From a virus, in IMG/VR virus record IMGVR_UViG_3300025079_000008, positions 1 through 40,180 of that record: a stretch of 40,180 bases of DNA. One strand, written 5' to 3'. Shown piece after piece: positions 1-17,800 of this stretch. The notes beneath the pieces were generated by a model that made no database searches, was not told where the DNA came from, and worked only from the letters and a program-made list of their open reading frames with translations. How positions within the stretch are numbered: position 1 is the stretch's first letter; every line of letters begins with the position of its first letter. The position numbers and the translations under genes were made by a program.

Positions 1-186
1 CGCGACGCTGGCCAGCTAACCCGCTACGTTTTGAGCGAGCGTAAAGCCAACCGCGAGCCTTTAGTATTGCTTCCACAGGACGAGCCCGCCTTTCCCTCTT
101 GGGTGATGGAGGAGCTTAAATCCATAGAGCCCGCGCTTGAATTCCACGAAGTGCCTTCAATCCATTCTGAGGGCATCCCGTGGTAA
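1..186 (+). CDS. Partial hypothetical protein, C-terminal 61 residues
   Basis: The frame is open from the first base of the window to a TAA at 184-186, so the 5' end lies outside. The visible part reads RDAGQLTRYVLSERKANREP and ends in SIHSEGIPW. It is mixed-charge with no recognisable motif, signal peptide or membrane segment. It lies on the same strand as the following small genes and its stop codon is the first base triplet of hairpin element A, so its transcript would run into that hairpin. I do not recognise the family. The uninterrupted frame and the position at the head of a same-strand gene series support it being real. Confidence 0.6.
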   Translation, partial: RDAGQLTRYVLSERKANREPLVLLPQDEPAFPSWVMEELKSIEPALEFHEVPSIHSEGIPW

Positions 187-250
187 TTCCTGAAACCCTT
201 ATCCTTTCCCATGGGAAGGGTAAGTCTTCAGGAATTACCTGATTTAAAAC
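184..250 (+). promoter_or_regulatory. Two-tier hairpin element A upstream of a start codon
   Basis: An outer 11-bp stem pairs TAATTCCTGAA (184-194) with TTCAGGAATTA (227-237) exactly. An inner stem pairs 198-210 with 213-224 (CTTATCC.TTCCC against GGGAAGGGTAAG, with one bulge and one G-U). After the stem comes a second CCTGA (238-242), which can also pair with TCAGG (228-232) across an AATTA loop, so the middle arm has two possible partners. TTTAAAAC and the ATG at 251 follow. There is no U-tract, so a standard intrinsic terminator is unlikely; RNA processing or translation control is inferred. Related elements lie at 475-553, 845-912, 3396-3476 and 5720-5791. Confidence 0.75.
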
Positions 251-472
251 ATGAATACAAAAATCAAAATTAAGCGCGGGTTTTATGACCAGATCGGCAG
301 TAATAAATTCATCCTTTTGGGGGGTGATGGGCCCGAGTATGTCGTGGATATACGGGGAGAAAATCGCTATTTCATAAAGCCAGAAAAATGCGAGTGGGGC
401 AAAGTAAATGTACATTCCGTAGAAGTCCATCCTAGCGACATAACGTACATGGAAGCCTACCCAAGCGACTAG
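251..472 (+). CDS. Hypothetical small protein, 73 aa
   Basis: This is a 73-residue protein beginning MNTKIKIKRGFYDQIGSNKF with an all-beta look (short alternating hydrophobic strands) and no recognised domain. The ATG follows hairpin element A and an AT-rich TTTAAAAC leader without a purine-rich ribosome binding site. The first codons, ATGAATACAAAAA, are shared with the genes starting at 913 and 2348, so the initiation region is duplicated. No function can be given. The start is supported by the shared leader and start arrangement. Confidence 0.65.
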   Translation: MNTKIKIKRGFYDQIGSNKFILLGGDGPEYVVDIRGENRYFIKPEKCEWGKVNVHSVEVHPSDITYMEAYPSD

Positions 473-474
473 TG

Positions 475-553
475 AATCTTGACTCTACCCCCCTCATTGA
501 GAGGGGTAGAAATCAGGACTCAATGAAGAGACTGAAACAAAACCAAAAACCAA
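475..553 (+). promoter_or_regulatory. Two-tier hairpin element C upstream of a start codon
   Basis: The outer stem pairs TCTTGA (477-482) with TCAGGA (513-518), one G-U pair included. The inner stem pairs 484-495 with 499-510 (TCTACCCC.CTC against GAG.GGGGTAGA, one mismatch). Downstream, TCAG..CTC (513-521) can instead pair with GAG..CTGA (528-535). The most divergent member of the family, it lies between the 73-aa gene and the ATG at 554 and is followed by an A-rich, C-spaced leader (ACAAAACCAAAAACCAA). No U-run follows the stem. Confidence 0.6.
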
Positions 554-832
554 ATGAACAAAATGAATATTGAAAGCATGAAAAAGACTGTCGAACTTTT
601 CGACCGCCTCCCAAACTTTAAGAATTTCGCATACTCTCGCGAGGGAATCAAAGACGTAATATTTGACGAAGACGGCGAAGACGGCGAAGTCGTTGAAGTA
701 CTCTTTTTCGCTGGATATCTTAAAAGGATATCGGCACGGGTTTATCGTGATGAACCTTTCCCCCTCGTGGAATCTACTTGGATTCTAGGCTATGATGATC
801 ATATTTCCGCCGTCTTTGTTGAGGTGAAATGA
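554..832 (+). CDS. Hypothetical acidic small protein, 92 aa
   Basis: A 92-residue protein beginning MNKMNIESMKKTVELFDRLP. It has a short N-terminal helix and a very acidic stretch (DEDGEDGEVVEV, about residues 38-49), followed by beta-like segments ending in HISAVFVEVK. The second Met, at 563, is an alternative start. It lies behind an A-rich leader and element C. No family is recognised. The acidity could suit a DNA-mimic or inhibitor protein, but nothing in the sequence shows that. Confidence 0.6.
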   Translation: MNKMNIESMKKTVELFDRLPNFKNFAYSREGIKDVIFDEDGEDGEVVEVLFFAGYLKRISARVYRDEPFPLVESTWILGYDDHISAVFVEVK

Positions 833-844
833 TCCCTGTTGCGT

Positions 845-912
845 GAATCTTGAAACCCTAAACCTTGTCCTTGGGCAGGGTTTAGGCTTCAGGAATTACC
901 CTGATTTAAACC
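845..912 (+). promoter_or_regulatory. Two-tier hairpin element B upstream of the gp88-like gene
   Basis: The inner stem is a continuous 14-bp helix, CCTAAACCTTGTCC (857-870) with GGGCAGGGTTTAGG (873-886); the tip pair would open to give a 4-nt loop. The outer stem pairs TCTTGAA (848-854) with TTCAGGA (888-894). A second CCTGA (900-904) can take TCAGG (889-893) away from the outer stem. TTTAAACC and the ATG at 913 follow. It shares TTCAGGAATTA, CTGATTTAAA and ATGAATACAAAAA with element A, so the two are copies of one cassette whose inner stems have diverged while staying paired. Confidence 0.75.
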
Positions 913-1638
913 ATGAATACAAAAACAAAAAAACCAAGCTGGAAGCCTCAACTAGGCTCTTTTGGCAAAGCATTGCCTAATTCAATCGCCTTGAACTTTT
1001 CGGAGTCCGGCGGCGCTAACTGTAGTACCAAGTGTGAAGCACTTAAAAAGGGAGTATGTTACGCGGTCCATGTTGAGAAGCTGAAGCCTTCCGTTCAAGT
1101 GTCCGGCCAGCGTAAACGCGAGCTAGGCTTTGCGGCCTTGTGTGAAGCATACGCCGCGAAAATCCGGCGCAAGGTCGCTAAAGGTGAAGCCATTCCGTGG
1201 ATCCGTTTTTCAACTTTCGGCAGTGTCCCAAATCGCCGCCTGACTGGCAATGAAATGGAAGCGTTCGCGGATATGGTAAATTCGTTTCCGGAAGGTGTCC
1301 CCGTTCATTTCCCAGTAGAAACGCGAGAGAAAGCGGAAAGATTCCGCGCGATTTGCGTCGCATTCAATTTGCCTCTAGTCATACGCGAGTCATGCCAAAG
1401 TGACGCGCGTATGCGGTCAGCTGATAACGTCGGACAGTCTTCCCGTATTGTTTTTGAGGGCGCTACAAAGTTGGAACGTCTTAAGAACGCGCAAGCCCTC
1501 GCGAAAGAGCTTCCCGCCGCGCGTGTATGCCCCGCGATCGCTTCCACTGTGTTGCGGCGCCCTAATCCCGTGAAATGCGGCCAGTGTACGCTATGCGCGC
1601 AAGCTGGCATCAAAACAATCCTCTACCCTCAACACTAA
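913..1638 (+). CDS. gp88-like cysteine-rich protein
   Basis: A 241-residue protein with an N-terminal cysteine cluster (CSTKCEALKKGVCYA, about residues 37-51) and a C-terminal cluster (VCPAI...VKCGQCTLC, then AQAGIKTILYPQH). The arrangement C..C..G.CYA plus a late C..C..C and a closing beta-strand with His resembles the phage 'gene product 88' family, whose biochemical role is unsettled; the clusters could bind metal. The middle has alternating helices and strands (WIRFSTFGSVP, VPVHFPVETREKA), compatible with an alpha/beta barrel. It follows hairpin element B and precedes another zinc-type protein. Codon use is richer in GCG/CGC than the replication genes. The family call is by resemblance only. 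Confidence 0.55.
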   Translation: MNTKTKKPSWKPQLGSFGKALPNSIALNFSESGGANCSTKCEALKKGVCYAVHVEKLKPSVQVSGQRKRELGFAALCEAYAAKIRRKVAKGEAIPWIRFSTFGSVPNRRLTGNEMEAFADMVNSFPEGVPVHFPVETREKAERFRAICVAFNLPLVIRESCQSDARMRSADNVGQSSRIVFEGATKLERLKNAQALAKELPAARVCPAIASTVLRRPNPVKCGQCTLCAQAGIKTILYPQH

Positions 1639-1650
1639 ACCACTAGAAAA

Positions 1651-2322
1651 ATGAATTTAAAATTTCAGTCTATCACTAGCCGAAATGGCAAGTTTCACGT
1701 GGGCTTCACGTCCGACTTTTCGAGCCATTACGACGCCGCCATGGCGATCTATAAACGCGGGGAAAAATCTGACTTTATAGAAACCCTTTTTGCGGCGGTC
1801 AAAAATCACCGCAAGTATGACGTGCCTATAGCGCCCTCGCTTCAATTCTGGCTACATAAACTAGCCTCGCAGCCTTCAAAACGTCGCGCGGCGGTAGAGA
1901 TTGACGCCGCAAAGATTCAAGCGGCCTTTGCTCTCGCGTCGTCGTCCTTAAAGCGCCCAAAATTCACGGTGCATAGTCCGGCGGGCGCGGTCCGTTTCTC
2001 TATGGCGGGAGAAAAGTCTAAATTTGCGGGCTCCATTGTCGTGGCCTCTCCGACCTTTGGGGAGGGTTTCTTTGGGAGTATACGTGAGGGCATCTTTTCA
2101 CCGTCGCGCGAGTGCACGGCCGAGATAGAAGCCATTGTGAAGGAGTTTGCGGCCGATCCCTCTCAGGCCGCCGCGTCCTATGGTAGAATGTCCGGCTCTT
2201 GCTGTTTTTGTCATAAGGAATTGACTACCAAGGACAGTTTGGCGGCCGGATACGGCCCGATTTGCGCGAAACATTACGGCCTTTCGTGGGGCTTGTCCGA
2301 GAAAATTATTGACCAAAGCTGA
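1651..2322 (+). CDS. DUF6011-type zinc-binding protein, 223 aa
   Basis: The C-terminus holds SGSCCFCHKELTTKDSLAAG followed by YGPICAKHYG. This is the Cys-x2-Cys ... GYGPxCxxxxG pattern of the DUF6011 zinc-binding domain found in phage and actinobacterial proteins. The preceding 180 residues are unassigned: beta-rich at first (ITSRNGKFHVGF), then helical with an Ala/Lys-rich stretch (AAVEIDAAKIQAAFALASSS). It begins 12 bp after the gp88-like gene with the leader CACTAGAAAAATG, so the two are probably co-transcribed. Its function is unknown; DUF6011 domains are thought to bind zinc and perhaps nucleic acid. Base use is GC-rich like its left neighbour. Confidence 0.6.
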   Translation: MNLKFQSITSRNGKFHVGFTSDFSSHYDAAMAIYKRGEKSDFIETLFAAVKNHRKYDVPIAPSLQFWLHKLASQPSKRRAAVEIDAAKIQAAFALASSSLKRPKFTVHSPAGAVRFSMAGEKSKFAGSIVVASPTFGEGFFGSIREGIFSPSRECTAEIEAIVKEFAADPSQAAASYGRMSGSCCFCHKELTTKDSLAAGYGPICAKHYGLSWGLSEKIIDQS

Positions 2323-2347
2323 AAAACCATTTTAAATCTAAATCGTC

Positions 2348-2611
2348 ATGAATACAAAAACCATCACACTAAAATATACCAGCCGCCACGGCGCTGGAGT
2401 CGTTAAGGGATTCCCCTTCCATGAGCTTGCCCATGAGATAGGCAAGCGCCTCCGCGCTCGCGAAGAATGCACCGCGTGGTTTTACGGCACCCCAGACGGG
2501 GAGCCCTACAAGGTGGGCGCGGTGTGGAAGCATCGCGACGACTCAAACCCCCGCAGGCTTTGGCAGTCTTTTTACATGGGTCCCGAAGGCATAGAAAGCC
2601 TTTCTAAATGA
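2348..2611 (+). CDS. Hypothetical small protein, 87 aa
   Basis: An 87-residue protein beginning MNTKTITLKYTSRHGAGVVK, with one helix (FHELAHEIGKRLRARE) and Trp/Tyr-rich beta segments (VGAVWKHRDDSNPRRLWQSF). HELAHEIGKR resembles a metallopeptidase HExxH only superficially: HELAHE is H-E-L-A-H, but the protein is too short and lacks other ligands, so I make no enzyme call. Its ATG shares ATGAATACAAAAACC with the starts at 251 and 913 but has no hairpin in front. Its stop overlaps the next start (ATGA). Confidence 0.6.
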   Translation: MNTKTITLKYTSRHGAGVVKGFPFHELAHEIGKRLRAREECTAWFYGTPDGEPYKVGAVWKHRDDSNPRRLWQSFYMGPEGIESLSK

Positions 2612-2946
2612 AGGCTTTTAATTGCAACGATTCGACAGAAGAGAAAGTTAAGATTATGATTGAAAAATATACAATGCCCTTGATCCACATGAATGGATCG
2701 GGAGAGGATAGACTACGCAGACAATACAATGATTTGTTTTGCGCTGTAAGCGATGCTCAAGTTAAACTGCTTTATGATACAGACTTCCATGAGAGAGATT
2801 ACTACCCTCTTGGGGATGAGGCTTGGGATAAAGCTTATCAAGAAAGAGAAGAGGTTAAGGAAGCAATGACTAAGGTTTACCAGTACGCCAAGCAACATAT
2901 GCATTACCTCGACTATGGAAAGGAGCCATTGCCAGATGAAGATTAA
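2608..2946 (+). CDS. Hypothetical protein, 112 aa
   Basis: A 112-residue, mostly helical protein starting MKAFNCNDSTEEKVKIMIEK and ending in LPDED. It overlaps the previous stop by ATGA, which indicates translational coupling; an internal Met at 2656 is a possible alternative start. The aromatic, acidic segment YDTDFHERDYYPLGDEAWDK is distinctive but not assigned to a family. Its last 11 bases, ATGAAGATTAA, also contain the start of the next gene. Function unknown. Confidence 0.6.
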   Translation: MKAFNCNDSTEEKVKIMIEKYTMPLIHMNGSGEDRLRRQYNDLFCAVSDAQVKLLYDTDFHERDYYPLGDEAWDKAYQEREEVKEAMTKVYQYAKQHMHYLDYGKEPLPDED

Positions 2947-3151
2947 AAAATGGATTGTAAGTATTAACGGTGAGAGACATACCGTCTTGGGAGACGAGGA
3001 TGGTCACCTTGAGTTGTGGGTTGAGCATGAGGACGGCACTCCTGTTTACGCTCTTAATCGCGACCTAGAAACGCCTAACGGATGGCTCGATTCTTTCACA
3101 TCAGAACGCATAGAAGATAACTATCGTAAAAAGCTAACAAATGAAGATTAA
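2936..3151 (+). CDS. Hypothetical small protein, 71 aa
   Basis: I choose the ATG at 2936 (MKIKKWIVSINGERHTVLGD) because it sits in the 11-nt overlap ATGAAGATTAA with the preceding gene. A farther upstream Met at 2915 would add only MERSHCQ. The protein is beta-like and acidic (DEDGHLELWVEHEDGTPVYA). Its own last 11 bases repeat the same ATGAAGATTAA junction, which starts the next gene (MKIKNYIV). The near-identical N-termini MKIKKWIV and MKIKNYIV suggest a small paralogous pair. No function is known. Confidence 0.6.
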   Translation: MKIKKWIVSINGERHTVLGDEDGHLELWVEHEDGTPVYALNRDLETPNGWLDSFTSERIEDNYRKKLTNED

Positions 3152-3320
3152 AAATTACATAGTTATAATGGAGGAAGTGAACCGCTTGCAGTTTGAAGTT
3201 GAAGCCTCTTCGGAGGCTGAGGCTATCGACTTGGTTGAGGTTGGAGAGGCTGGAGATCCTACCGATCAAAGGGCAATGGAGTTTAATTGCCTATCTATAA
3301 AAGAATACATCATTAAATAA
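3141..3320 (+). CDS. Hypothetical small protein, 59 aa
   Basis: A 59-residue protein, MKIKNYIVIMEEVNRLQFEV ending CLSIKEYIIK, starting in the 11-nt overlap with the upstream gene. It has an N-terminal strand, a strand with an acidic face (LQFEVEASSEAEAIDLVEVG) and a closing strand, resembling small beta-sheet phage proteins that sense or bind without catalysis. No family is recognised. Its stop TAA is followed at once by a strong hairpin (3323-3364), which ends this run of overlapping genes. Confidence 0.55.
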   Translation: MKIKNYIVIMEEVNRLQFEVEASSEAEAIDLVEVGEAGDPTDQRAMEFNCLSIKEYIIK

Positions 3321-3322
3321 AA

Positions 3323-3364
3323 CCCCCGTAACTCGTTGACTATCAGCGAGTTACAGGGCGGGGG
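3323..3364 (+). terminator. Strong stem-loop after the overlapping gene run
   Basis: GTAACTCG (3328-3335) pairs exactly with CGAGTTAC (3347-3354) around an 11-nt loop. The stem extends with CCCCC (3323-3327) against the G-rich run after 3355. It begins 3 bp after the stop at 3318-3320 and is the obvious place for the run to end. On the plus strand no U-tract follows. On the opposite strand the stem would be followed by TTTTATTT, so as an intrinsic terminator it fits minus-strand transcription better. It could equally be an RNA 3'-end stabiliser. Confidence 0.5.
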
Positions 3365-3395
3365 CGGCAGGGCATCGTGATAAGAAACCTCCCTT

Positions 3396-3476
3396 CCTGA
3401 GCCCTGAGCCCTGAGCCATGTTCCCTTGTCTCTAGAGACAGGGGGGCACACTCAGGTTTTAGCCTGACTTAAAAAC
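3396..3476 (+). promoter_or_regulatory. Two-tier hairpin element D with triplicated left arm
   Basis: Three tandem copies of the 7-mer CCTGAGC begin at 3396, 3403 and 3410. Any of them can pair with CTCAGG (3451-3456). The inner stem is CCCTTGTCTC (3423-3432) with GAGACAGGGG (3435-3444), ten pairs including one G-U. Downstream CCTGA (3463-3467) can also pair with TCAGG (3452-3456) across TTTTAG. CTTAAAAAC and the ATG at 3477 follow. It has the same order of parts as elements A and B, with a different inner stem and an extra covarying G-C pair in the outer stem. Confidence 0.7.
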
Positions 3477-3749
3477 ATGAATATGAAAGAAAAAACAGAT
3501 AGGATCCTGCAATGCAGGAGCACTTCACGCGGCCGCAAATTAATTGAGCAGGCCCGCAGCGGATACGTAACCGGAGACGACACGGACACCCTCCTATGGT
3601 GGGCGCAGCAAGCCCTCGGACCCATAACCAGACAAAACCTTTTTGAGAGGTTTGAGATTGTCAACGTGCTAGCGGACAGGGTGGACCAGTTAAACGGGGG
3701 CCAAAAGAAACCCCCACTCAAATGGGTGTCTCAGTATTTAGCAAAGTAG
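3477..3749 (+). CDS. Hypothetical small protein, 90 aa
   Basis: A 90-residue basic helical protein beginning MNMKEKTDRILQCRSTSRGR and ending KWVSQYLAK. Helices with conserved-looking aromatic positions (DTDTLLWWAQQALGP, NLFERFEIVNVLADRVDQL) suggest a small helical bundle. It lies directly behind hairpin element D and its A-rich leader. A second Met (MKEK, 3483) is an alternative start. No family recognised; charge and size would suit a nucleic-acid-associated protein, which is only a guess. Confidence 0.6.
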   Translation: MNMKEKTDRILQCRSTSRGRKLIEQARSGYVTGDDTDTLLWWAQQALGPITRQNLFERFEIVNVLADRVDQLNGGQKKPPLKWVSQYLAK

Positions 3750-3753
3750 AGTC

Positions 3754-3963
3754 ATGAGTGTAGAAATTCAAAACAGTTGGACGTTCGCCGCACGGATCTT
3801 GTGTGACGTTTTAGAGCGGGAGCATTCCTCATACGAGGACCGAAAGGCGGCACGCGAGGACATCATGCGTATGGCGCAAGCTTTGGACGCGGAGATCCAG
3901 CGCATGGCGAAAGCCTTGGATGACTCGGAGATCCGCAGGGGAGGGGGGAAAGATGGACATTGA
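3754..3963 (+). CDS. Hypothetical helical protein, 69 aa
   Basis: A 69-residue, almost entirely helical protein (MSVEIQNSWTFAARILCDVL). It contains an imperfect internal repeat, RMAQALDAEIQ and RMAKALDDSEIR, compatible with a short coiled coil. It starts 4 bp after the previous stop. Its 3' end carries a purine-rich stretch (GGGGAGGGGGGAAAG) that also serves as the ribosome binding site of the next gene, whose start overlaps it by 11 nt. No function recognised. Confidence 0.55.
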   Translation: MSVEIQNSWTFAARILCDVLEREHSSYEDRKAAREDIMRMAQALDAEIQRMAKALDDSEIRRGGGKDGH

Positions 3964-4297
3964 ATCTCTCCTAGCGGATGGGTTCCGCGCGGGGCAGATG
4001 ACCCAGCAGGACCTCGAAAATGAGATAGATAAATATCACGCGTGGCTCGACGAACGGGCTTATGAAATCGAACAAGACCTGATGAAAAGTAACATTGAAC
4101 GACCTAAGGGAGACTTTATCTTCCATATCATCAACCATCTAGGAAAGGCACATGATGTGCGCGTAGATAGTGAGATCTTTGAGGCTTACCAAAGCCCTGT
4201 TTCACGTGTTCTTTACATTCACGCCCACAATCGTGATGTTACTGAGGGCAAGCCCTTTCAAATCAAATCTAGAAGCTGGGAGGGACGCAACAGATGA
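3953..4297 (+). CDS. Hypothetical protein, 114 aa
   Basis: I take the ATG at 3953 (MDIESLLADGFRAGQMTQQD) because it follows a very strong purine-rich ribosome binding site and lies in an 11-nt overlap (ATGGACATTGA) with the previous gene. The frame extends upstream to 3920 without a good start. The protein has an N-terminal helix, an acidic helical middle (KYHAWLDERAYEIEQDLMKS) and a C-terminal beta-like half (VSRVLYIHAHNRDV). Family unknown. Its stop overlaps the next ATG (ATGA). Confidence 0.6.
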   Translation: MDIESLLADGFRAGQMTQQDLENEIDKYHAWLDERAYEIEQDLMKSNIERPKGDFIFHIINHLGKAHDVRVDSEIFEAYQSPVSRVLYIHAHNRDVTEGKPFQIKSRSWEGRNR

Positions 4298-4539
4298 GAA
4301 GTGATCTAGCTAAAATGTCGGACACTTACGGAATCACCTTGGAGCTAACCGGGAGACCAAAGGGAGAAATCAGGGATGATTCTTGTGTTTGTATAAAGAA
4401 AAGCATCACACTTTTCCGGATACGGATTGCGGCAGGGATATGTTTGAATGGGCGACCGAAGGTGCCAATCCTACTGGCGAAAAACATTGGCTTTGGGAGG
4501 CTCGCGACGGGGTTTGCCCAAGTTGCGGTCAGGAAGTAA
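4294..4539 (+). CDS. Uncertain overlapping frame, possible 5' half of a frameshifted gene
   Basis: An ATG at 4294 overlaps the previous stop by ATGA and opens an 81-codon frame (MRSDLAKMSDTYGITLELTG). The first 30 residues look protein-like (TYGITLELTGRPKGEIRDD). The later part (ITLFRIRIAAGICLNGRPKV) looks like an out-of-frame reading of the zinc-ribbon frame at 4383-4586. The simplest reading is either one gene with a -1 shift near 4380-4395, or two overlapping genes, the second starting at a TTG. No classical slippery heptamer was found at the changeover. Confidence 0.35.
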   Translation: MRSDLAKMSDTYGITLELTGRPKGEIRDDSCVCIKKSITLFRIRIAAGICLNGRPKVPILLAKNIGFGRLATGFAQVAVRK

Positions 4540-4586
4540 CTTACGACTGTCATTTCATAGTCACGCATTACCAAGAAAATGAATAA
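4383..4586 (+). CDS. Putative zinc-ribbon peptide, TTG start or frameshift product
   Basis: A 67-codon frame reading MCLYKEKHHTFPDTDCGRDM and ending VCPSCGQEVTYDCHFIVTHY plus QENE. The C-P-S-C-G-Q knuckle with another Cys (DCHF) is typical of a small zinc ribbon, and composition is far more natural than the competing frame at 4294. The only start near its 5' end is TTG at 4383, six bases after an in-frame stop and preceded by CAGGGA. It may instead be joined by a -1 frameshift to the frame starting at 4294. Its stop overlaps the next ATG (ATGAATAA). Confidence 0.5.
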   Translation: MCLYKEKHHTFPDTDCGRDMFEWATEGANPTGEKHWLWEARDGVCPSCGQEVTYDCHFIVTHYQENE

Positions 4587-4857
4587 AGAATATCAGCAAC
4601 AAATCGTTGCAGAGACGACGGCGCTTTTGAAGCGGGAGGCAGAAGCATTAGACATTCCGGCAAGATGGATAGCGGGCGCCCTTACGGATGACGACACGGG
4701 CCGCCCTAAGCAGGCAGTCCGGCAGGCGGTGAACGCACGGCATCGAATCATCGCGGAGCTAGTGGCAGGGGGTCACCCCAAAGATGCTGTGGCTAGGTGC
4801 TTCGGTTTAAACCAGCAATCCATTCACCAAATCCTACGGAAGCTCAAGAAGTCATGA
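4579..4857 (+). CDS. Small helix-turn-helix protein, 92 aa
   Basis: A 92-residue helical protein beginning MNKEYQQQIVAETTALLKRE. Its last third, from AELVAGGHPKDAVARCFGLN to QQSIHQILRKLKKS, reads as helix-turn-helix: a helix, a turn after GLN, and a basic recognition helix, as in Trp-repressor-like or resolvase-type domains. It probably binds DNA as a small phage regulator. It overlaps the previous gene by 8 nt and the following winged-helix gene by 4 nt, so two DNA-binding proteins would be made from one transcript. Confidence in the fold is moderate; the target is unknown. Confidence 0.55.
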   Translation: MNKEYQQQIVAETTALLKREAEALDIPARWIAGALTDDDTGRPKQAVRQAVNARHRIIAELVAGGHPKDAVARCFGLNQQSIHQILRKLKKS

Positions 4858-5201
4858 CTGCCACACATAAAATCGCCCGCTTGATAGCTGCGCTTGAACA
4901 CTTCCGGCGTGCTGGGGTGCCTACATTGCACCAAGCTAGTATCCTTGCGACCATAGCTGCCAAGCCAGACGGCGCTACGTATAAGCAAATCAGTCTCATC
5001 TTGGGATCGATTGACCCAACGTCTATCGGCGCAGTGTGTCGTTCTTTAGCGGAGCATAATCTGGTTCGCGTAGAAAGTCATACGATGGTCGAGAAAGAGA
5101 AGCGTGATCATTACGGGGACCGTAAGATCATGAAAGTATACCCGACGCCCTACCTAAAAGATTTGGTGGGGCTTGTAGAACACGACGTATGGGGGGATTA
5201 A
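4854..5201 (+). CDS. Winged-helix (MarR-like) DNA-binding protein, 115 aa
   Basis: I use the ATG at 4854 (MTATHKIARLIAALEHFRRA), which overlaps the previous stop by ATGA; the longer frame from 4797 lies inside the upstream gene. The protein shows helix-helix-HTH-wing order: HQASILATIAAKPDGATYKQ, ISLILGSIDPTSIGAVCRSL (recognition helix), AEHNLVRVESHTMVEKEKRD (wing), then a strand KVYPTPYLKDLV. This is the MarR/DUF-type winged-helix pattern. It is likely a transcription regulator of the phage early region. Ligand and operator are unknown. Confidence 0.6.
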   Translation: MTATHKIARLIAALEHFRRAGVPTLHQASILATIAAKPDGATYKQISLILGSIDPTSIGAVCRSLAEHNLVRVESHTMVEKEKRDHYGDRKIMKVYPTPYLKDLVGLVEHDVWGD

Positions 5202-5395
5202 ATGATGAAACTGAACCACGCCTTGAATGCCTGCGGTGCAGAGAAGATGTCACCGACGACTTTAGGGAAGACATTGAAGGGAATGTGTTCTGCCCTGCCT
5301 GCAATAGGGACAAGGATAGAAACGGGAACCCCTACCGCAGTGACGCAGACGAAATGCGAGGAAATTATAGAGATTATCTCCCATATGGGTGGTGA
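5189..5395 (+). CDS. Zinc-ribbon small protein, 68 aa
   Basis: A 68-residue acidic protein beginning MGGLNDETEPRLECLRCRED. Two Cys-x2-Cys knuckles (CLRC and, after DIEGNVF, CPAC) are separated by about 18 residues, as in a zinc ribbon or treble-clef finger. The C-terminus is acidic and Tyr-rich (DEMRGNYRDYLPYGW). Its start lies inside the end of the winged-helix gene (13-nt overlap). It is preferred over the longer competing frame from 5202 because of the paired cysteine knuckles. Confidence 0.55.
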   Translation: MGGLNDETEPRLECLRCREDVTDDFREDIEGNVFCPACNRDKDRNGNPYRSDADEMRGNYRDYLPYGW

Positions 5396-5633
5396 CACAG
5401 TGTCGTATGATAACGGGACCAGCGTCACTAAGGACGTGATCCATTTTGAAGTCGATCAGGAGGTTGTTCTTACTAAGGTGATCCTGACCTATAGGAAAGA
5501 CCCACCGATATATGCTCGCGACATTGTCCGCCACCGGATTGAAGATGAGGAGACTTATGATAATCAGTTAGTTTCACTCGGCAGTTCTTGTAGGCATATG
5601 CCATCGCAAAGCCCACAGCAGCTAAGTAGATGA
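5385..5633 (+). CDS. Hypothetical protein, 82 aa
   Basis: From the ATG at 5385 (MGGDTVSYDNGTSVTKDVIH), an 82-residue protein overlaps the zinc-ribbon gene by 11 nt (ATGGGTGGTGA), the same overlap length as four other junctions in this region. The frame is open upstream to 5202, but that part is an out-of-frame reading of the zinc ribbon. The middle looks like beta strands (IHFEVDQEVVLTKVILTYRK) and the tail is polar (CRHMPSQSPQQLSR). No family recognised. If it is not real, the stretch from 5396 to 5783 would have no gene. Confidence 0.45.
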   Translation: MGGDTVSYDNGTSVTKDVIHFEVDQEVVLTKVILTYRKDPPIYARDIVRHRIEDEETYDNQLVSLGSSCRHMPSQSPQQLSR

Positions 5634-5719
5634 TAAAAACACTTGAAAAAGGTTTGTGAGTAGACAAACTCCTTGCGGGTGGCTGATTTTCCATCATCAG
5701 ACATCTGTTTCATATTAGT
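5634..5719. other. Non-coding interval before hairpin element E
   Basis: Between the 82-aa gene and element E I see no convincing gene on either strand. A 9-codon frame (MIKTLEKGL) starts at 5630 in an ATGATAA overlap but is too short to claim. A minus-strand frame at 5473-5697 with one hydrophobic stretch runs against every neighbouring gene and overlaps the 82-aa gene. Confidence 0.5.
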
Positions 5720-5791
5720 ACTGAACCCTGTATCCTGATTCCTATTTAGTGTGTGTGGAATCAGGGTGCAGTCTCAGTTTTAAATGACTGA
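5720..5791 (+). promoter_or_regulatory. Hairpin element E, with the start codon in an alternative loop
   Basis: The outer arms are ACTGA (5720-5724) and TCAGT (5774-5778). The middle stem is CTGTA (5728-5732) with TGCAG (5767-5771), and the inner stem is CCTGATTCC (5734-5742) with GGAATCAGG (5757-5765). A third ACTGA (5787-5791) can pair with TCAGT, which would put the start codon ATG (5784-5786) in the loop. Relative to elements A, B and D, all three arms changed together (CCTGA/TCAGG/CCTGA to ACTGA/TCAGT/ACTGA). This coordinated change is the best evidence that both alternative pairings matter. Confidence 0.7.
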
Positions 5792-6065
5792 ATACAAAAT
5801 ACGAAAAACTATGTTAGTTAAAAAAATAGCAAAAGGGTTATATGATGTGTTTGATAGCACATCTAGCCATTACCATGTAGAGGATGCGGATAGATCGTAT
5901 CGCCGTCACTTGCGCCGCCCCGAGTATGCCCGTGGTAAAGATTGGCGTTGGGGAATTTGGGAGCAGGAAGATGGGGAGTGGAAGTATCTCGATGGTAATT
6001 CATCGATGGCTGAATCTTTGGAAGTAATCAATACATGGGCGCAAGCTCAAGCCTTCTTGCGATGA
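5784..6065 (+). CDS. Hypothetical protein, 93 aa
   Basis: A 93-residue protein starting MTEYKIRKTMLVKKIAKGLY. It is Trp/Tyr-rich with alternating strands (GLYDVFDSTSSHYHVEDADR, DWRWGIWEQEDGEWKYLDGN) and a C-terminal helix (VINTWAQAQAFLR). The start lies in the 3' arm of hairpin element E, so initiation may depend on RNA folding. The next gene, an SF2 helicase, overlaps by ATGA and is probably translated from the same message. Function unknown. Confidence 0.6.
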   Translation: MTEYKIRKTMLVKKIAKGLYDVFDSTSSHYHVEDADRSYRRHLRRPEYARGKDWRWGIWEQEDGEWKYLDGNSSMAESLEVINTWAQAQAFLR

Positions 6066-8472: not shown

Positions 8473-8809
8473 AGAACTACTGGAGTTACATTCTGTTACC
8501 AGCGTGCGTTGTCGTCGCATTATGGAGTCAAAGAATAAGGACTACACGGGAGGCTCAGAAGCGTGCGACCCGTTCGCCAACTTCCGTGCGTCCGAAACCG
8601 TAGGCATCCACCCTATCAAGGGGATCCTGCTCAGAATGCAGGATAAGATTCAGCGTATTAATTCCTTCGCAAACGACGGTAAGCTAACCGTTAAGGAGGA
8701 ATCAGTTAACGATGCCTGTGAAGACATCGTTAACTACGCGATCCTTATCAAGGCTATTGCCTCGGAAGAGCCTATTCTTCCAGAGGAATTACAACATTCG
8801 GATACTTAG
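8462..8809 (+). CDS. DUF1599/MazG-like nucleotide-associated protein, 115 aa
   Basis: An all-helical 115-residue protein with the family pattern KNKDYTGG, DPFANF, RMQDKIQRI and a final ESVNDACEDIVNYAIL. This is the layout of DUF1599 proteins, which are related to the all-alpha MazG-type NTP pyrophosphohydrolases. The acidic residues E..E..D in the helices would bind metal. The likely role is acting on a nucleotide pool or on modified nucleotides; substrate unknown. Last gene of the plus-strand block: its final 38 nt overlap the 3' end of the giant gene on the other strand. Confidence 0.6.
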   Translation: MTHEELLELHSVTSVRCRRIMESKNKDYTGGSEACDPFANFRASETVGIHPIKGILLRMQDKIQRINSFANDGKLTVKEESVNDACEDIVNYAILIKAIASEEPILPEELQHSDT

Positions 8810-11800
8810 AGTTAGCGTAATTCAACTGTTTGAATTGCCTTGTAGCGTCTCTTGGATTTAAATAATGTTTTTGCATTTGGAAAGCCGTAGCTTGAGGTCT
8901 CAGGCCCAACCCAACATAAGATAGTTGGAACCGTTGCTTGGATATTCCTGACCCCATGGCGGTTGCTTGTTGTAGCCCGACATTATAGCCCATAGAGTTT
9001 AATCCCTTTATCATCCTGTTTAAGTCACGGTTATACCTTTTCTGTCTGAGGAATGCTTTATCGTAGTTAGCGTAGATCTCTCCGTCTAGCATTCCATCAG
9101 ACTGACCAAGATCTAAGAGCCTCTTATTCTCTCGGGTGTTCGCAGCATTATCGCGGAACGCTTTACTAGCTATTCTATCCGGCTCAATTAAGAATGGTTT
9201 AAAGGGCATGAATTCTTTCATGAGGATGCCTAATGGGCTTGAGAACATTCTCTCAGATTTATCTGAATAGAGTGCTTTGCCTGCATCATAGACTGCTTTA
9301 CCTGACCTAGGCATATACGCGTTTTGAAGAATATAGTTTGCTTGAGCGGTTAATTTGTTCTCATCGGCTTTATCTACGATCCTGTTACCGTATGTGTCTT
9401 CGTTTAAAACTACCACATCGATGAAAGCTTTAGCAAAGATTTGTTCTTGGAGGAAAGGTTTTGCCAACCCTGTCATCCCGAATATTTCGTTAGCGGTAGT
9501 CAATGGATCATCCCCTTGTGCGAAACTTTCAATCCCCCGCATGAAAGGTTCAAGGTATGAACTTAAAGGGTTAACAAAAGTGTGGTCAACGACATATCTT
9601 GACCCTCCGGATTTAAAGAAAGTTAAGCCTGAATCCTGCATCCATGTTGGAAGGCCCATTCTGGTAGTCCATGCCTGTTCCTTTTCTTCTTCGTTGTCTC
9701 CCAGCAATAACTCACTCCCTTTCGTCACGGCTAGGGAGGCCCCCACAGTAGTGACATAGCCAAAGAATCTCCTACGACCTCTCGCTTTAATAACGGGGTT
9801 GGGATCCTTTAATTCTCTGCGAGCTTGAGCTAATCCTGAGAAGAAAATCCTCGGAGGTTCTGCTGCGAAGCGAACAAACGTTCCAAACACGTTAGATATT
9901 GGGTTGTTTGTGAAGCTCTTCACCCAAGGCATAGCCTTACTATATGCCTGCGCTGTGTTCTTTACTATTTCAGCAGCCTGTTCCTCTAATACTGGACTAG
10001 GAACTATCTTCCCATCCTCCTCAAAGATCAGTTTACTACGGGGATCATTAGGTGGGGCCTGTTTAGCGGCTTCAATTAGTGTCTGTAACTCAAAATCATA
10101 CATACCGATTTTGAATATTCCATCAGAGGCTTGTGCTAAACGTCCACCAAGATCGATCAAAGCTTTTGATGCTTGCTTTACGGTGGAGTAGGTTACGGCA
10201 GCCGGAACGATACCATATCTAGCCATTATGTCTGAGACCTCAGTAGGTATCTTCTTACCTGAGCTTTTATTGATTATCTCAGAAGCTTTTTTCTCAATTC
10301 TCCCAATGGCCTTTAGATCTTTTATTAACTGCTTTCTCGATACTCTTCCTGTTAACAAGTTTTTAATTACGTTTGCTTCTACTTCATCACCGTAAACATC
10401 GAGAGTCCTGAGCTTTGCAAGATAAAAATCTACCTCTGCTGTGTCACCTCTTACGGCTCTTAGCAAAAGCGAAGATTGCTCTTCTGCCTCGGTGAATACT
10501 ACTTCTTTTAGTAACTTCACGGGCTCTACTATGGCATCTAAAACGCTGCCATAATAACCTTGGAGGGGGCCTAGAACGGCACCATTCCCCAGAAGGTTTC
10601 GGATGTAGAAACCGAAAGCTCCCAGAGTGTTCACCGCGAGAGACAAACCAGTAGCCTGCTTTACATAGGAGCCCATTTTTGCAATAAAGCCTTCCCGCTC
10701 GTTTTTAAGATCCGTATATTCTTTTCTCCCTTGTTTAAATACGTCAGCGAAATCACGAATTACGTGATCCGGAGCATACATATCTCTGAGAGGCATTAGG
10801 TCACTGTCACCTTGATCATCCGCAACTTTAGACCAGTCAGCATATTTATCTGGATCGTCTGCGGGTGGGTTATCATATTCTTCCTGTGTTATGAGCCATG
10901 GTTCCTGACTCTTGGTCCCTAATTCCTTGATCTTGTTGAAGAAAGATTGGTTCGCGACTAAGGATGAAGTGTGCAGTAAGGTGGAACTTAAATTTTCAAT
11001 ACCCTCAGAGTCTCCATACTCCCCTAATACTGCTCTGATCTCATCAGGAATATCTTTCTTTTCATTTATCTGATTAGCAAGTGCCCGCATTGTGGGGTCC
11101 TTGAATTGCTCAGGCATAACAACTTGTTGCTGGCCCGTTATGTTAGTGATCTTTAGCTTCTTGCTATTTTTGTTTTTCTCGTAGCCTTTTATGAAGTCTC
11201 TAACCATCTCCATGCCTTGGGACATGTGTTTAGAGTTGTTCGCACTAATTTCTAGATCAATCCTTCGGGCAGCCCTTTTTGGAGAGATTCCCGTTTTCTT
11301 CACCATTACGGGAATTTCCAGCATAGCTTTTTTGCGTGCGAAGAACATCGCCGCAGCCTCTCGCTCTTTCGCGTAAGTGTCGTCGGACATATCCAAGACT
11401 TGTTCTGCAAAGTCATTGTCTTCAAACATCCTATACCGTCGAGTGTAGTAGATCCCCCTATTGAAATCGAAAGCCATCTCAAGGTCATGTGGATTCATAC
11501 TCGGCCCAAAAACCTCCATCGCTTTCAAAGATAGTTTATCTTGAAGATCTCTCATCTTTACAACAAGAGCATACATTTTTGGAGACTGGTTGTACAACGC
11601 ACTTAAAGCGGCATCTCTCCGCTGTAGTAAACTATCACGCTTCCCGATCCTCGCATCTTTAGTGGCTCTTTCTTTCTTTGCCGTAGCTGCCTCCTCTGCT
11701 GCTTTTCTTGCGTCTCCGACTAGGCGTTTAGCCGCATTTACCTCATCCAAGTAATCATTTTGGATTTGATCTATTTGAGACTGTTTAAGTTCTGTCCCTT

Positions 11801-14800
11801 TGCTTGCGCCGGAAGCAATAGCGATTAATTCAGCGGGGATATCAACACCCAACCTTTTGTTCTCTTGAGCCAATAAGGTATCGTGCTCTGCTTGAAAAGA
11901 GGAGACAGTGTTCGCGATCTCCCTAGCGAAGGCTACCGATTTCATATAGAAAGAAACCAACCTACGGTCTCCCCTGCGGGACAGCCATTTGATTGCAGTC
12001 CTTTTTATTTTACGACTCCAGTTATTCTTTTCGGGGGCGTCAATATCATACTTGGAAAAGTCCATGATGTTGACATCGAGGTGTGAGAACCAAGAACCGA
12101 TTTCTTTTTCTTGTAACTCTACAGGTGTTAAGAACTGTGGAATTTTACTGTCCGACCCAAACTGAGATTCAAGGTCTCGGTTGGTTGCTTTGGGCTTTCC
12201 ATCTACTTGTTCCTCTATAATCTCTACTTGCTCCGCAGGGTTCCAAGAAACCAGAACACCTTTTTCTGTAGCGTGGATGCCGTCAAATCCGGTAAGTTCC
12301 GTAAATAGATCCAACATAGGTTGAGTTCCCGTTTCGGAGACGCGTCCAGTCCTGCTACTAGTCAAGCTCTGCCCCCCACCTCTGGTTGGTCTCTCAAGAT
12401 ACCCAACCATAATATCTTTAAGAGGTTTTAATTTTTCAAAATAACTAGCGTCAGTGTCAAAGAAACCCGCAGAAAATATTTCGTTCGGTGTCTTTGAGAA
12501 GTTAAAGTCTTTATAATTTTTTTCGACACGGGATCTTAATTGATCCGCCTCTTCGGGAGTCAACCCATACTTATCTATAACTCCCTGCATAAACGGCTCG
12601 TAAAACTCGCGCAATTTATTACCGCCATCTGTGTGTGATTTAACTAAAATCGGATTCTTTAGCCTTATGTTTACAACGTAGTTTACTTTTGAACCCCCAT
12701 ACGTCCCCTCCCAGCGGTTTCCCCCTGCAAAGTATACTCCGGCGCCCAAACCTTCAGAATTAGTAGACTGGTTTGGGTCAAAAGTGACAATCCCTTCAGT
12801 GTTAGACCCATGTGCCCACTCTTTAAAATAACCCCTAGCAGGATCATCTGGGAAGGAATCTTCAATTGTATCTGGCTCCGCGTTTTTAACTGGGGCTAGT
12901 TGCCTAGTCTCAGCGAATTGGCTGATCATCGTTTCAATGATCTGCTCGCTGTTCCTCATGTTGTATTCCATCTGCCCACTTGATGGGCGATAGCCCAACT
13001 CCATCGCACGGATTTCGCGAACGACGTTGTTTACGGCCAACCGAGTCTCGTCAGACAACTGCTGCGAAGAGCGGTGGTATACTAGTTTACTTAGGAGGGC
13101 TTTAAGATACTGAACGAATGTCGGTATCAAGCTTGGGTTGGTGCTTAGGAAAGCTATCTGTTGATTAGTTGTTGTCCCCCTTATGGCTCGACTAGCGTGC
13201 TCAACAATAAACTCGTTGGCTAACTTATATTTTTCTACAGAAGAAGTCTCGGGGTCCTCACTCCTTAATCTTTCGAGAGCTTCGGCCTGTTGGTCTTGAG
13301 GATAATAGGCTTCAAGAGCACGGACAAAATCATCTTCGACCATAGAGTTAGCCACTCCGAGTATCTGCTGATCTGTCAGCATTTGGTTTGCTGCTGCGTG
13401 CCCAATCTCCTCATTCATCAGCGCAGCCAGAACAGCTTCTTTCCGTCTATTACTGAGTTCCATGCTGTTGAGTTTAACAGCGGCTCTAATCGGGTTGAAT
13501 ATCAGGTGTCCTGTCTCATCATCTATCTTAGCGATGACACGAGAAGTCTCATCCACCTGCATGACAATCTCATCAGGGACGTAGCCCCTTGCAAAACTAA
13601 GAAGATTCTGTGAGTCCTCTAATAATTTAAGTTGGACTTCTGCATCTCCTGAGATGTCGAGATCTTTAGCGATACGAGAAGCTCTTCCTGTGGAATAGAA
13701 AACTTGTTTTGAAACAGCTCTAGTAAACGTGTCTATGGTAAAGACAGAGTCAGCGGTATAAGCAAAAGCGGCTTCCAGACCTTCGTTAAGGGTGACGATC
13801 TTCTTATCTAAGAATTTGGCTATTGCTCTAACAATACTTTCAAACACACCGTGCTTTTTATTAGGCTCGGCAGTTACGTTTTGCACATAGGTTTGGAAAT
13901 CCTTATCTGTAAGAATGTAAGCCACAAACTCTTCCATGCTAGCGGTAGCCGTTCGTGCGTTTCTGTTGAAACCCATCGTGGCGCGTCGGCGGACATACTT
14001 TCTGAGCCTATTTAGTTCTGCGAAAGCAGCGTCTTGAGTTTTAGTTCTCAGATCTGCTCCGTAGAACATCATGTCTACAGTAAATGCATGGATGAATTCG
14101 TGGAGTAGTGTCCCCTGTAACCCGTATTGCCCACTCGCTTTTCTTACAGGGTTGATGGTGACTGTATTAGTCTCCGCATTATACATTCCCGCATAAGTCT
14201 CCAATGAAGATTCGATTTTGAACTTAACGCTCCGAATATATGCTTTGTTTTTCAAAAGCATTTTCGCAACTACCCGTAAAATCTTAGGGCCACTCTTCTC
14301 AATTTTTTCTAACGCAGCAATAACAGATTCCGGATCCCCACTAGCTAAACCTAGTTCTTCAATAGCCTCTCTGTTATCTTTGATGTTCTCTGAAATAATC
14401 TTTGGATTGTTTTTTCCTGATCCAATGCGGAAGAACTGCCGTGAGCCCTTCTTTATTCTAGTGTGAAAATCATCGATGTGTTTTTCATTAAGTGAGAAGC
14501 CAAAAACTTCCTCAAATTTCTTACCAAGATACGTACTAAACTCAGGGTCAGCATCAGGGTCTTTACCAATCATTGGGTTACCAATGCCTAAGGCCCGTAT
14601 AGAAAAGTCTAATTGAGTGGCGCTTTGGTTGCCATTGTCAGAAAGTTCTTTTAACTTTTGTAAGAAATCAACAACCTTTGAGTTGGATATGTTGTTACCT
14701 TGTGAAAACAAATAAACTATATTGTCTGCTACACGACGTGAAGTTAACCCTGCACTGACAAAAGTCAGAGGTTCATCATGCAATTCAGAGTCCAGCATTT

Positions 14801-17800
14801 CATCGGCCAATGCCCGCAACTCGGGATCAGATTCCAAAACATCGACTATTTCATCGTGCTCCCCATGAAGAAAATCATCAGTGCCCGTTTCATGTAACGT
14901 TGGGAGAGGATCCAAATCAGCAGGCATGTCCGTATCTTCCGCTACTTCAGGTGCGATTTGATCTCCCCTTCTTGTAATCTGGCTGCCCTTGTCAATTAGT
15001 TGAGCGATAGTTTTTCCTGCTTGTTCAGCACGCGCTGCTGCAATTTTTGCATTAGCTTCTACTTCTGCATTAGCTAATTCTGTAACGTTAAAGCGGGGCC
15101 CCGTTTTACCTTGCGCGATTTCTATCGCAGTTTGATAAATTCTTTTCTCAAGCTGCAATCTAAATGTTATAGCAGCCGTTTTGTAATACCTATCCCTGAC
15201 TTTTTTAGTCGTCCCAGAGTCTTTTGTTTTTCTGATAGCCGCATTACGCTCAACTAATCTCTTAGGCATAGTGCTTTCAGGGTCTTTAACAAGAGCTAAA
15301 AGATCAGATAGACTGATCTCTTTATCTTGTGGAACACCCAAACGCTTCATATCTTTAAAAGGATTCTTCACCTTTACGTCATCAGGGATAACGGTATCTT
15401 GAAGTCCTTTGACTTCATTAACTAGTTTTCGGACTGGGCGATAATCGGAGATGTGATCTACAACCTGATCTGGTTTTAAGTAGGATACTGCCGAGACTAA
15501 ACCACCCCGTGTTGGGATGTGAATATCAGTAACTTGCCACTGCCCATCCACTTGATTAAATTCAAATGCAGGGTTGACCTGCGAGTTCTCTTGCTTAGAT
15601 AGGTTAACAATCTCTTCACTAACTGGAATAGTGAAACCCCCACTAAAGAAAGTGAGCATTGATTGGGGGTCGTTATTAAAAATACCCGCCCCGTTCTCAT
15701 CGAGGTAAACAAACCTTTGGCTTCGATCAGAGGAAAAAAGATCCGGCAATTTTATGAGCGGGTTTTTCTTGGTGCTCTTAATTTTTATTGCAGGATACTT
15801 TTCTTCAATCTTATCTGAAATATACTTAGAAAGTTGCTTTAGATCTTTAGGCTCGGCTTTGTCTAAATTGAGATTAAACGCCGCTAAGTGCTCCATAATC
15901 AAAGACACCGGATAGCCTGCTTCAATAAGCTCAGATACTTGCTGAGTATCTCCTTCCGTTATTGGGCCTTGTTCTTGTTCTTCGGTTGTTTCCCTATCAA
16001 ATTGTTTGTCTATAAAACTACGAGCTTTGTCGGCGTCTGTGTCCGTCAACAAAATTCCCCGAGACCTTAGCTCATTGATTTTATTTTCGAGATCTTGTTT
16101 CTGATCTTCGGGAAGAGAGTCGAGCAAGCTTTTAGCTTTTACATATAAATCGTTAGAACGTTGGATCCTATCGTAGGCGTCTGCTTTTTTCTGCTCCGGT
16201 GTTTGGTAAGAGGTTGCTCCGACAGGCCCACCACCAAGTTCTTTCGTTAGGCTTTCTTTCCCGAGTAATTCTAAAACATCCGACAGGGCCTGATTTCCCG
16301 AAACTTCAGCGGTATCCGATGATTCGTCCTCGTTCATTACCTGTTCAAGAGCGCCACCTAACTCGTCTTTATCACTCTTAGCTTGAGCACTATCAAGATC
16401 TGCCTTCAACTTTTTGGCTTCTGCATCTGCGAGGTCCTGTGCTTTGTGCGTCGCAAGAGTTCCCCGAACAGAAATAAATTTCTGCTGCTGCTCCGAAGTC
16501 ATATTATCCCAACGGCCCGCATCCCTTTCTTGTTGAATATCCTCATTTAGTATGCGTTCTGCATCATCTAAAATAATCTTATCCTTTTGTGCTTTGTCCG
16601 TAGGTTGTTGCGGAAGTTTTGTCTCATTTGTAGCCCCCTCATCCGTTTGATTTTGTGTTTCAGCAGTTGGGATCCCACGCTCTTGAAGAACAGCAAAAAC
16701 TTGAGGCGCGTTTTTCTTTAGTTCATCGTATTTTTTAGCAAGCTCTGTGTCTTGTGCAGCTTTCTTTTGAACATTTTTATCAAATTGGACTATGAGATCC
16801 TTCTCCATTTGATTTAAAGCTTTCTTATCTAAAAGCTTGTTCCCAAGAAAAGGTGTTTTACTCGCACCGTATTTAAGCGCGGGTCCAGCCGCACCCATAG
16901 CCATACCTAATTTGAAACCCATGAGTCCCTGCTGCATGATTTTATGCATCGGTGTGGTTTCATTCGTGTAAACATCTTGGATCAAGCTGTTTACAACTTC
17001 ATCTAAACCTTCTTCAAAACCCTCTCCGAGAGCAGAACCGACAAGAGTCGTCGCGCGCCCGCCCATTCTTTTAGTGAATGTTTGCCGCATAGCCGTTTTC
17101 AACAAGCCTGTTAAACCTTTGTCTGTAACAGCGTATCCAGCCACACGGCTTGCGGCAGTTTTGAATTGCTTATAAGTGACCCCTTTAAGAAAAGCAGTTT
17201 CAAGACCGCCACTTCCTTTTAAGCCTTTAAAGGTTTTACCCCCGAATGTTCCACCCCCTGCAATTCGGCCCATTCCCGCTGTTAAAAATCCAGTGAAAGC
17301 ACCCCCAACTAAAAAACCGCTTTGCCCCCCTTCGTGGGCTTCTTCGTGCACTCTTTCTTTACTCCACCCTTCGTCCCACTGTCCATTTTTAAAATGCTTC
17401 TGTGTTAAGCTCGTTTCAAGCGAAGTATAAACAGCCTCATAAGTTGAACTACCACTACGTAGGGCAGCCGGAACAAAGGTGGCACTATCAATCGCTAAAT
17501 CTTTTGCTAAATTAGAGCTATACGCTTTCAGAAAAACCGTCGCCTCTTTAGGAGACAGAGAACTTAATGCGGCAATAGAGCTTGCTTCTATACCAGATTC
17601 TGCGGCGGATTTGTAAAAGGCCCTGCTCGTAACCGATTTATACATGGTTTTCACCACGGCCTTTGCGGAAGCTTTTGTGGTAAAGTATGTGGCTAGCGCC
17701 GCTAAAGACAATCCTCCTGTTGGTTTGGCGGCTACCGCAGCAGTAGCGGAGACAATCATGTCGGCAACCATAGGGGCCGCTTGCTCGGAAAGCTCATACC

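Follow-up and report, generated by a model that had tools for sequence, protein, structure and literature searches.

What might a set of related hairpins do in front of the early genes of an uncultured bacterial virus? The window, meaning the whole 40,180-nucleotide stretch of DNA analysed, contains five such RNA hairpins, A–E, each in a gap preceding an early gene (gaps 187–250, 473–553, 833–912, 3321–3476 and 5634–5783), and the remaining genes of this early region abut or overlap. The hairpins span 182–239 (A), 473–522 (B), 843–899 (C), 3396–3462 (D) and 5720–5778 (E) and share one shape: an extended hairpin that does not branch and whose stem is interrupted midway by a small internal loop, with a start codon 11–32 nt beyond it. 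The outer stem has about 5–13 bp and the inner stem 11–18 bp; the internal loop, mostly asymmetric (3x2, 1x2 or 2x1), lies at 224–228 (A), 510–513 (B), 886–888 (C), 3448–3451 (D) and 5771–5774 (E). A third, right arm lies at a variable spacing of 5 to 13 nt from the middle arm. The components are as follows.

182–194, + strand: left arm of A, GGTAATTCCTGAA; 13 bp with 227–239; includes the stop TAA (184–186) of the upstream ORF
198–224, + strand: inner hairpin of A, 12 bp
227–239, + strand: middle arm of A, TTCAGGAATTACC; pairs with the left arm of A
238–242, + strand: right arm of A, CCTGA; overlaps the extended end of the middle arm; 8 nt 5′ of ATG 251; p 0.013
473–482, + strand: left arm of B, TGAATCTTGA; immediately 3′ of the stop TAG (470–472)
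484–510, + strand: inner hairpin of B, from the fold
513–522, + strand: middle arm of B, TCAGGACTCA, from the fold
531–535, + strand: right arm of B, ACTGA; 18 nt 5′ of ATG 554; middle:right p 0.003
843–854, + strand: left arm of C, GTGAATCTTGAA; 10 nt 3′ of the stop at 830–832
856–886, + strand: inner hairpin of C, 13 bp
888–899, + strand: middle arm of C, TTCAGGAATTAC, from the fold
900–904, + strand: right arm of C, CCTGA; 8 nt 5′ of ATG 913 (a GP88-like gene by Pfam match); middle:right p 0.006
3323–3364, + strand: extra hairpin sharing the gap with D; directly 3′ of the stop at 3318–3320; −25.9 kcal/mol; without a U-tract
3396–3415, + strand: left arm of D, three tandem CCTGAGC heptamers, from sequence and fold
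3419–3448, + strand: inner hairpin of D, 13 bp
3451–3462, + strand: middle arm of D, CTCAGGTTTTAG, from the fold
3463–3467, + strand: right arm of D, CCTGA; 9 nt 5′ of ATG 3477; middle:right p 0.015
5720–5724, + strand: left arm of E, ACTGA; the hairpin base may reach 5715
5728–5771, + strand: inner hairpin of E, 15–18 bp
5774–5778, + strand: middle arm of E, TCAGT, from the fold
5787–5791, + strand: right arm of E, ACTGA; overlaps TGAATACAAAA; position not homologous to that in A, C and D; p 0.009
5811–6065, + strand: gene downstream of E, with its start taken from the L006 ortholog (MLVKK...)
27277–27309, + strand: leader hairpin of the DNA polymerase gene, which starts at ATG 27323

Minimum free energies for A–E are −35.1, −25.5, −29.5, −34.0 and −33.2 kcal/mol, with fold z scores of −6.2, −4.2, −4.5, −2.7 and −5.8 relative to dinucleotide shuffles, and the five account for five of the eight strongest hairpins in a fold scan of both strands of the window. 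Energies, z scores and gap positions agree that the family of five hairpins before start codons, proposed in an initial annotation of this DNA, is real. Each 5′ arm finds its best partner in its cognate 3′ arm, both in A–E and in the relative L006. Among nine elements from the window and its relatives, the sense fold is better than the antisense fold in seven, with 28 G-U pairs in sense versus 8 in antisense, and selection therefore appears to act on RNA; element B is an exception, folding better in antisense and scoring higher as the reverse complement in the both-strand scan. RNA-level selection is thus supported by cognate arm pairing together with strand asymmetry. Rfam gave no match in the window at gathering score.

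The inner stems had been described as diverged yet still paired. The pairing holds, but the sequences follow a pattern: a strong 7-nt period runs through the 5′ arms, which are degenerate arrays of CCTGAAC-like heptamers, ending some 40–70 nt before the start. Derivation of these arms from start-associated heptamer repeats forms part of our best explanation. As an indicator of the host, the heptamer was rejected, its matches being scattered over many phyla.

The left, middle and right arms read CCTGA/TCAGG/CCTGA in A and D, exactly as first annotated; CTTGA/TCAGG/CCTGA, with one G-U, in C; CTTGA/TCAGG/ACTGA in B, whose right arm contributes just 4 clean pairs, supplemented by a CTC/GAG helix; and ACTGA/TCAGT/ACTGA in E. 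The suggestion that the middle arm can pair with the right arm is borne out: in each of the five window elements the middle arm pairs better with the real tail than with shuffled ones (p 0.003–0.015 each, values that are not independent because the five copies are related). As controls, about 1.5% of bipartite ORF-internal hairpins reach p<0.02 and none of 20 polymerase-leader hairpins reaches p<0.05. With the left arm free, the long hairpin is preferred in four of the five elements (its advantage in A, C and D is 4 to 14 kcal/mol), the two folds being about equal only in E (0.52); once the left arm is made unavailable, every middle arm is predicted to bind the tail instead, with P about 1.0. 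It is thus physically plausible for each of the five elements to adopt either of two folds that exclude each other, and the AUG used is unpaired in both.

Less of the covariation argument survives. At E, all three arms were said to have changed together; left and middle did so, through replacement of one C-G pair by A-T, but in the alignment the right arm overlaps TGAATACAAAA, the stretch that lies 3′ of the start codon in other elements. Co-change is therefore demonstrable there for left and middle arms only, and the right arm of B is probably likewise off the homologous position. The start after E is probably ATG 5811 rather than ATG 5784, given that the L006 ortholog begins MLVKK. Alignable copies are few, with the 3′ arms of B and E placed wrongly by MAFFT, and the case for right-arm covariation draws on a small number of copies, some of them related to one another; what had been presented as comparative evidence for two folds holds as to their plausibility in all five elements, but less so as to covariation of the right arm.

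Several scans for close relatives of the early region yielded only L002–L006, and the single match of a motif pattern (L123) was discarded as a coding-like stretch without a hairpin; named phages gave no nucleotide match, and helicase matches are just 18–24% identical. The bipartite layout is present in A–E, in L006 and in the more distant L003 and L004, which have the same plan with other arm sequences (TTCC/GGAG/CTCC). Right-arm pairing is supported in two elements of L003/L004 and weak in one of three (p 0.19); these elements lie near fold balance (0.65 and 0.31), and loss of the left arm raises predicted middle:right pairing to P 0.99–1.0. The right arm of L006's own element is not significant (p 0.24), and a right-arm scan across all relatives found no further clear family. 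Relatives possess distinct repeated leader hairpins of their own. Absence from relatives, which the initial annotation had named as grounds for refutation, is thus partial: the layout recurs, but C is absent before the orthologous gene in L002–L004, indicating that elements turn over, and at the orthologous site in L006 no clear counterpart of E forms, so that no gene strictly requires its element. A possible, if doubtful, generalization is that bistable three-arm leader RNAs occur phage-wide, their middle arm passing to a start-proximal third arm once the left arm has been cleaved off or is covered by the upstream ribosome, and that the plan recurs with unrelated arms in related phages.

The polymerase-leader hairpin is present in all 25 non-redundant sequences checked, the window included. 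Its stem sequences differ from those of A–E, and it has no third arm. Inspection of loop lengths excluded an H-type pseudoknot there. N4-like hairpin promoters, considered because of a 3539-aa ORF, were discarded after Pfam, PHROGs and PDB gave no RNA polymerase match.

The elements resemble sites of RNA control or processing, for which phages offer only loosely described examples, and among the roles initially suggested an RNase III-type processing site fits their shape best. We propose, as a tenable reading somewhat short of probable, that A–E are RNase III-like processing hairpins whose cutting releases the middle arm, which then folds into a small 5′-terminal hairpin. On this reading each gap of a polycistronic early transcript holds one leader hairpin, and host RNase III, or an enzyme equivalent to it, would cut at the internal loop or close by. 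The upstream message would keep the inner hairpin, capping its 3′ end; the downstream message would start at the middle arm, now without its left partner. Middle and right arms would then form a small hairpin 8–19 nt ahead of the start codon, which would protect the new 5′ end while the A-rich start region stayed open.

The same change of partner could instead be driven by translation: a ribosome ending the upstream gene would cover the left arm, promote middle:right pairing and alter initiation at the next start, as in termination–reinitiation coupling. The flip on left-arm blocking, the near bistability of E, L003 and one L004 element, and stop codons that overlap the left arm, directly adjoin it or lie no more than about 10 nt away (A, B, C, L003, L004) are in keeping with such a switch. 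D and E, however, lie about 75–86 nt 3′ of the upstream stop, free A, C and D prefer the long fold, and the AUG is open in either fold, which also makes a translation switch, one of the roles suggested earlier, less likely in a form that hides the AUG; we consider ribosome coupling unlikely. We rate as similarly improbable the idea that these are selfish or neutral repeats, heptamer arrays that grow by slippage, invert by template switching and are tolerated in gaps. The 7-nt period, the rapid turnover among relatives and the plain heptamer arrays immediately 5′ of an ATG in L006 (448–472), in unrelated phages and in bacteria all suit it, but cognate pairing, sense-strand bias and a third arm would not be expected to outlast divergence in neutral repeats.

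Conservation, highest among the copies in the outer arms and tail, could also reflect RNA (or DNA) operators at which a phage- or host-encoded protein binds the outer arms and internal loop; the relatives' distinct leader hairpins would be expected if protein and sites change together, and mycobacteriophage ESAS repeats have been proposed as protein sites (PMC3203893). We found no candidate RNA-binding protein, the middle–right spacing varies, and strand asymmetry argues against a DNA site, making operators quite unlikely. Intrinsic terminators of the upstream genes would account for strong hairpins 3′ of stop codons, and a U-run accompanies 9 of the 25 polymerase-leader hairpins. Yet the initial observation that no U-tract follows the elements holds for A–C, D and E have at most UUUU 3′ of the middle arm, and, as that annotation anticipated, a scan for terminators detects none where the elements lie. 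Moreover, the short distance from hairpin to start codon leaves little room for a new promoter, and we regard termination as very improbable.

The processing model has a partial precedent in T7 R1.1, a 60-nt intercistronic site whose internal loop is asymmetric (4/5 nt) and which cleavage divides into fragments of 47 and 13 nt (PMC6121014). A–E are likewise intercistronic hairpins of ~60 nt with a mid-stem internal loop, but one of 3x2 or smaller rather than 4x5. We know of no third arm at T7 RNase III sites. Like attenuator-type 1:2/2:3 RNA switches, A–E offer the middle arm two alternative partners; unlike them, the alternative fold involves neither a terminator nor AUG occlusion. In Beggiatoaceae, TAACTGA heptamers lie shortly upstream of starts as direct repeats with a proposed translational role (PMC4679880); those are plain repeats of a different heptamer, whereas the degenerate heptamers of A–E form one arm of a hairpin.

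The nearest described system is the ESAS of Cluster K mycobacteriophages, whose SAS/ESAS elements are repeated in intergenic gaps directly before starts (PMC3203893), as A–E are; similar motifs occur in Microbacterium Cluster EF phages (PMC7302621). The SAS itself is a 13-mer, GGGATAGGAGCCC-like, that is conserved at the ribosome-binding site (PMC3203893). No SAS-like 13-mer occurs before the A–E starts, where the sequences are GATTTAAAAC, GATTTAAACC and similar, and no Shine-Dalgarno-like repeat adjoins the AUG. ESAS is an imperfect 17-bp inverted repeat with a variable spacer and a consensus that differs among subclusters; its arms conform to the consensus rather than to each other and were reported as not supporting RNA base pairing (PMC3203893). 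Such phage start-associated repeats, described in 2011, had no known function, and RNA pairing was judged unlikely (PMC3203893). In A–E, by contrast, the arms conform to each other, and RNA pairing has support from the cognate match of the arms, the bias towards the sense strand and the repetition of a third arm. With that third arm and a mid-stem internal loop, both features distinguishing them from SAS/ESAS, A–E give a testable RNA mechanism for setting the expression of single genes within a polycistronic phage transcript.

Arm coordinates confirm the five hairpins that the initial annotation had claimed, here elements A–E (182-239, 473-522, 843-899, 3396-3462 and 5720-5778), each of which precedes an early gene. 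Their fold energies lie far beyond those of shuffled sequences (z -2.7 to -6.2), they account for five of the eight strongest hairpins in a both-strand scan of the window, and they sit in gaps of an early region that is elsewhere tightly packed. One layout is common to all: an inner stem of 11–18 bp, separated from an outer stem by a small internal loop that is 3x2 in three elements and 2x1 and 1x2 in the remaining two. A sixth member, with a 3x2 loop and CCTTGAA/TTCAGG arms, lies at about 679-735 in the relative L006, upstream of ATGAATACAAA. The gap holding element D also contains a second strong hairpin (3323-3364), without a U-tract, directly after the stop codon at 3318-3320.

This 40,180-base IMG/VR virus record encodes a family A DNA polymerase, a DUF5906 (primase-like) protein, a helicase and a terminase-like protein. 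Its first 8 kb gave no nucleotide match to a named phage, and against annotated phages the helicase reaches no more than 18–24% identity. Helicase identity is 97% for L005/G001, a contig whose start falls within the helicase gene, shortly after the elements, 71% for L006/G002 and about 50% across a broad group of relatives; the GP88-like protein of L002–L004 is 70% identical. The early genes converge with a 3539-aa ORF (8772-19391, minus strand) at a 14-nt near-perfect palindrome, AGTTAACGATGCCT/AGACATCGTTAACT (8704-8735). The ORF, in which a weak SprT-like metallopeptidase match (residues 1719-1771) is the sole hit, probably encodes a giant virion or ejection protein.

Pairing within the elements is kept despite sequence change. 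When each 5' arm was paired with each 3' arm, those of A–E and of L006 all bound most strongly to their cognate 3' arm, with a margin of 2.4 to 11 kcal/mol. Most stem positions, numbered from the internal loop, carry two to four pair types, counts that hinge on anchoring the copies at that loop. The fold of the sense strand, that of the downstream gene, is stabler than its reverse complement in seven of nine elements, B and L006 being the exceptions, and G-U pairs number 28 versus 8. Because of this stability and G-U bias, we read selection as acting on RNA rather than on a DNA dyad.

The inner stems have diverged while remaining paired, but their sequence is not arbitrary. A marked 7-nt period runs through the 5' arms of A, B, C and E, with identity at 47 of 95 positions at lag 7, versus 19–34 at lags 3–6 and 8 (shuffles, 0/5000), and element D carries three tandem copies of CCTGAGC. 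A plain array without a pairing partner, GCTGAACCCTGTAACCTGAAC, lies directly 5' of an ATG in L006 (448-472) and is near-identical to the left part of E. Tandem (CCYTGAA)n heptamers ending in CCATG precede start codons in three unrelated viral contigs (L090, L092 and L093), and (CCYTGAA)n arrays also precede ATG at 24 loci (L094–L117) in bacteria of many phyla. Given this period and these plain arrays, the inner stems look like degenerate heptamers supplied with matching complements.

The middle arm can pair with the left arm, forming the long hairpin, or with a right arm near the start codon. Folding its first 7 nt with the downstream leader, against shuffled leaders, gave p values of 0.013, 0.003, 0.006, 0.015 and 0.009 for A to E, 0.016 for L003 and 0.019 for the first L004 element; the same test was not significant for the second L004 element (p 0.19) or L006 (p 0.24). 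As background, 4 of 269 ORF-internal bipartite hairpins reached p<0.02. Barring the left arm from pairing raised the middle arm:tail probability to 0.99–1.0 in all folded elements. With the left arm free, the long hairpin prevails in A–D, while the two folds come close to balance in E (0.52), L003 (0.65) and the first L004 element (0.31). Since the L003/L004 arms (TTCC/GGAG/CTCC) do not resemble the window's arms at all, the three-arm plan has a degree of independent support. The third-arm evidence as a whole has two limits. The right arm of A, C and D is common by descent. The proposal that all three arms changed together in E holds for left and middle only, because its right arm, ACTGAA(T)ACAAAA, aligns with ATGAATACAAAA in other elements; the right arm of B is probably the same stretch.

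The elements are gained and lost between relatives. L002–L004 lack the one upstream of the GP88-like gene, and in two of them a Shine-Dalgarno sequence takes its place; at the L006 site orthologous to E, where CCTTGA/TCAGG words are present, no clear element was found (z -0.7). Other leader hairpins occur in the group:

Window, 27277-27309: DNA polymerase leader hairpin, 5' of the polymerase start
L053, 4-65, 373-428, 794-883 and 5575-5652: repeated leader hairpin GCAGGGTATAACCAACTATACCCTGC and variants
L080, 759-845: repeated leader hairpin GCAGGGTATAACCAACTATACCCTGC and variants

The polymerase hairpin recurs in every one of the 25 non-redundant sequences examined, the window included, with very different stems unrelated in sequence; a U-run follows it in nine, and none of 20 had a third arm at p<0.05. 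These hairpins, whose choice on the sense strand somewhat favors a sense bias, show the same trend (G-U 36 versus 14; sense better in 19 of 25, worse in 5). Downstream of most GCAGGGTATAACCAACTATACCCTGC hairpins, CCTTAA and an A-rich leader lead up to a start codon. Since the polymerase hairpin is universal in this set and L053 and L080 have hairpins of their own, leader hairpins are a habit of the phage group, in which one lineage has the three-arm elements as its version.

Our preferred, if tentative, reading of these analyses is that the elements may be RNase III-like processing sites. They match in shape and position the T7 early mRNA signal R1.1, a 60-nt RNA that lies between genes 1.0 and 1.1, has an asymmetric internal loop and is cut into 47 and 13 nt (PMC6121014). 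Cutting by an RNase III-like enzyme would remove the left arm, and the new 5' end could then fold on itself, giving the third arm a simple use. It is established that RNase E-mediated decay in E. coli is slowed when the 5' terminus of an RNA is base-paired (reportedly Bouvet and Belasco 1992, as listed in PMC3997798). Cleavage, the host enzyme and stability are all steps that we infer.

A ribosome-coupled switch is unlikely; it fits A, B, C and the L003/L004 elements, whose left arms contain or adjoin stop codons, but not D and E. Functionless repeats are equally improbable. Protein-binding sites seem slightly less probable still, and terminators very improbable.

Nothing in Rfam matches the elements. 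The nearest described start-associated phage systems are the SAS/ESAS repeats of Cluster K mycobacteriophages (PMC3203893) and comparable motifs in Cluster EF phages of Microbacterium (PMC7302621); for the inverted repeats of ESAS, hairpin formation was considered unlikely (PMC3203893). TAACTGA heptamers (PMC4679880) are also among the closest. Judged against the open-access literature, and with an earlier description elsewhere possible, we class the three-arm elements as a new form of start-associated phage element.
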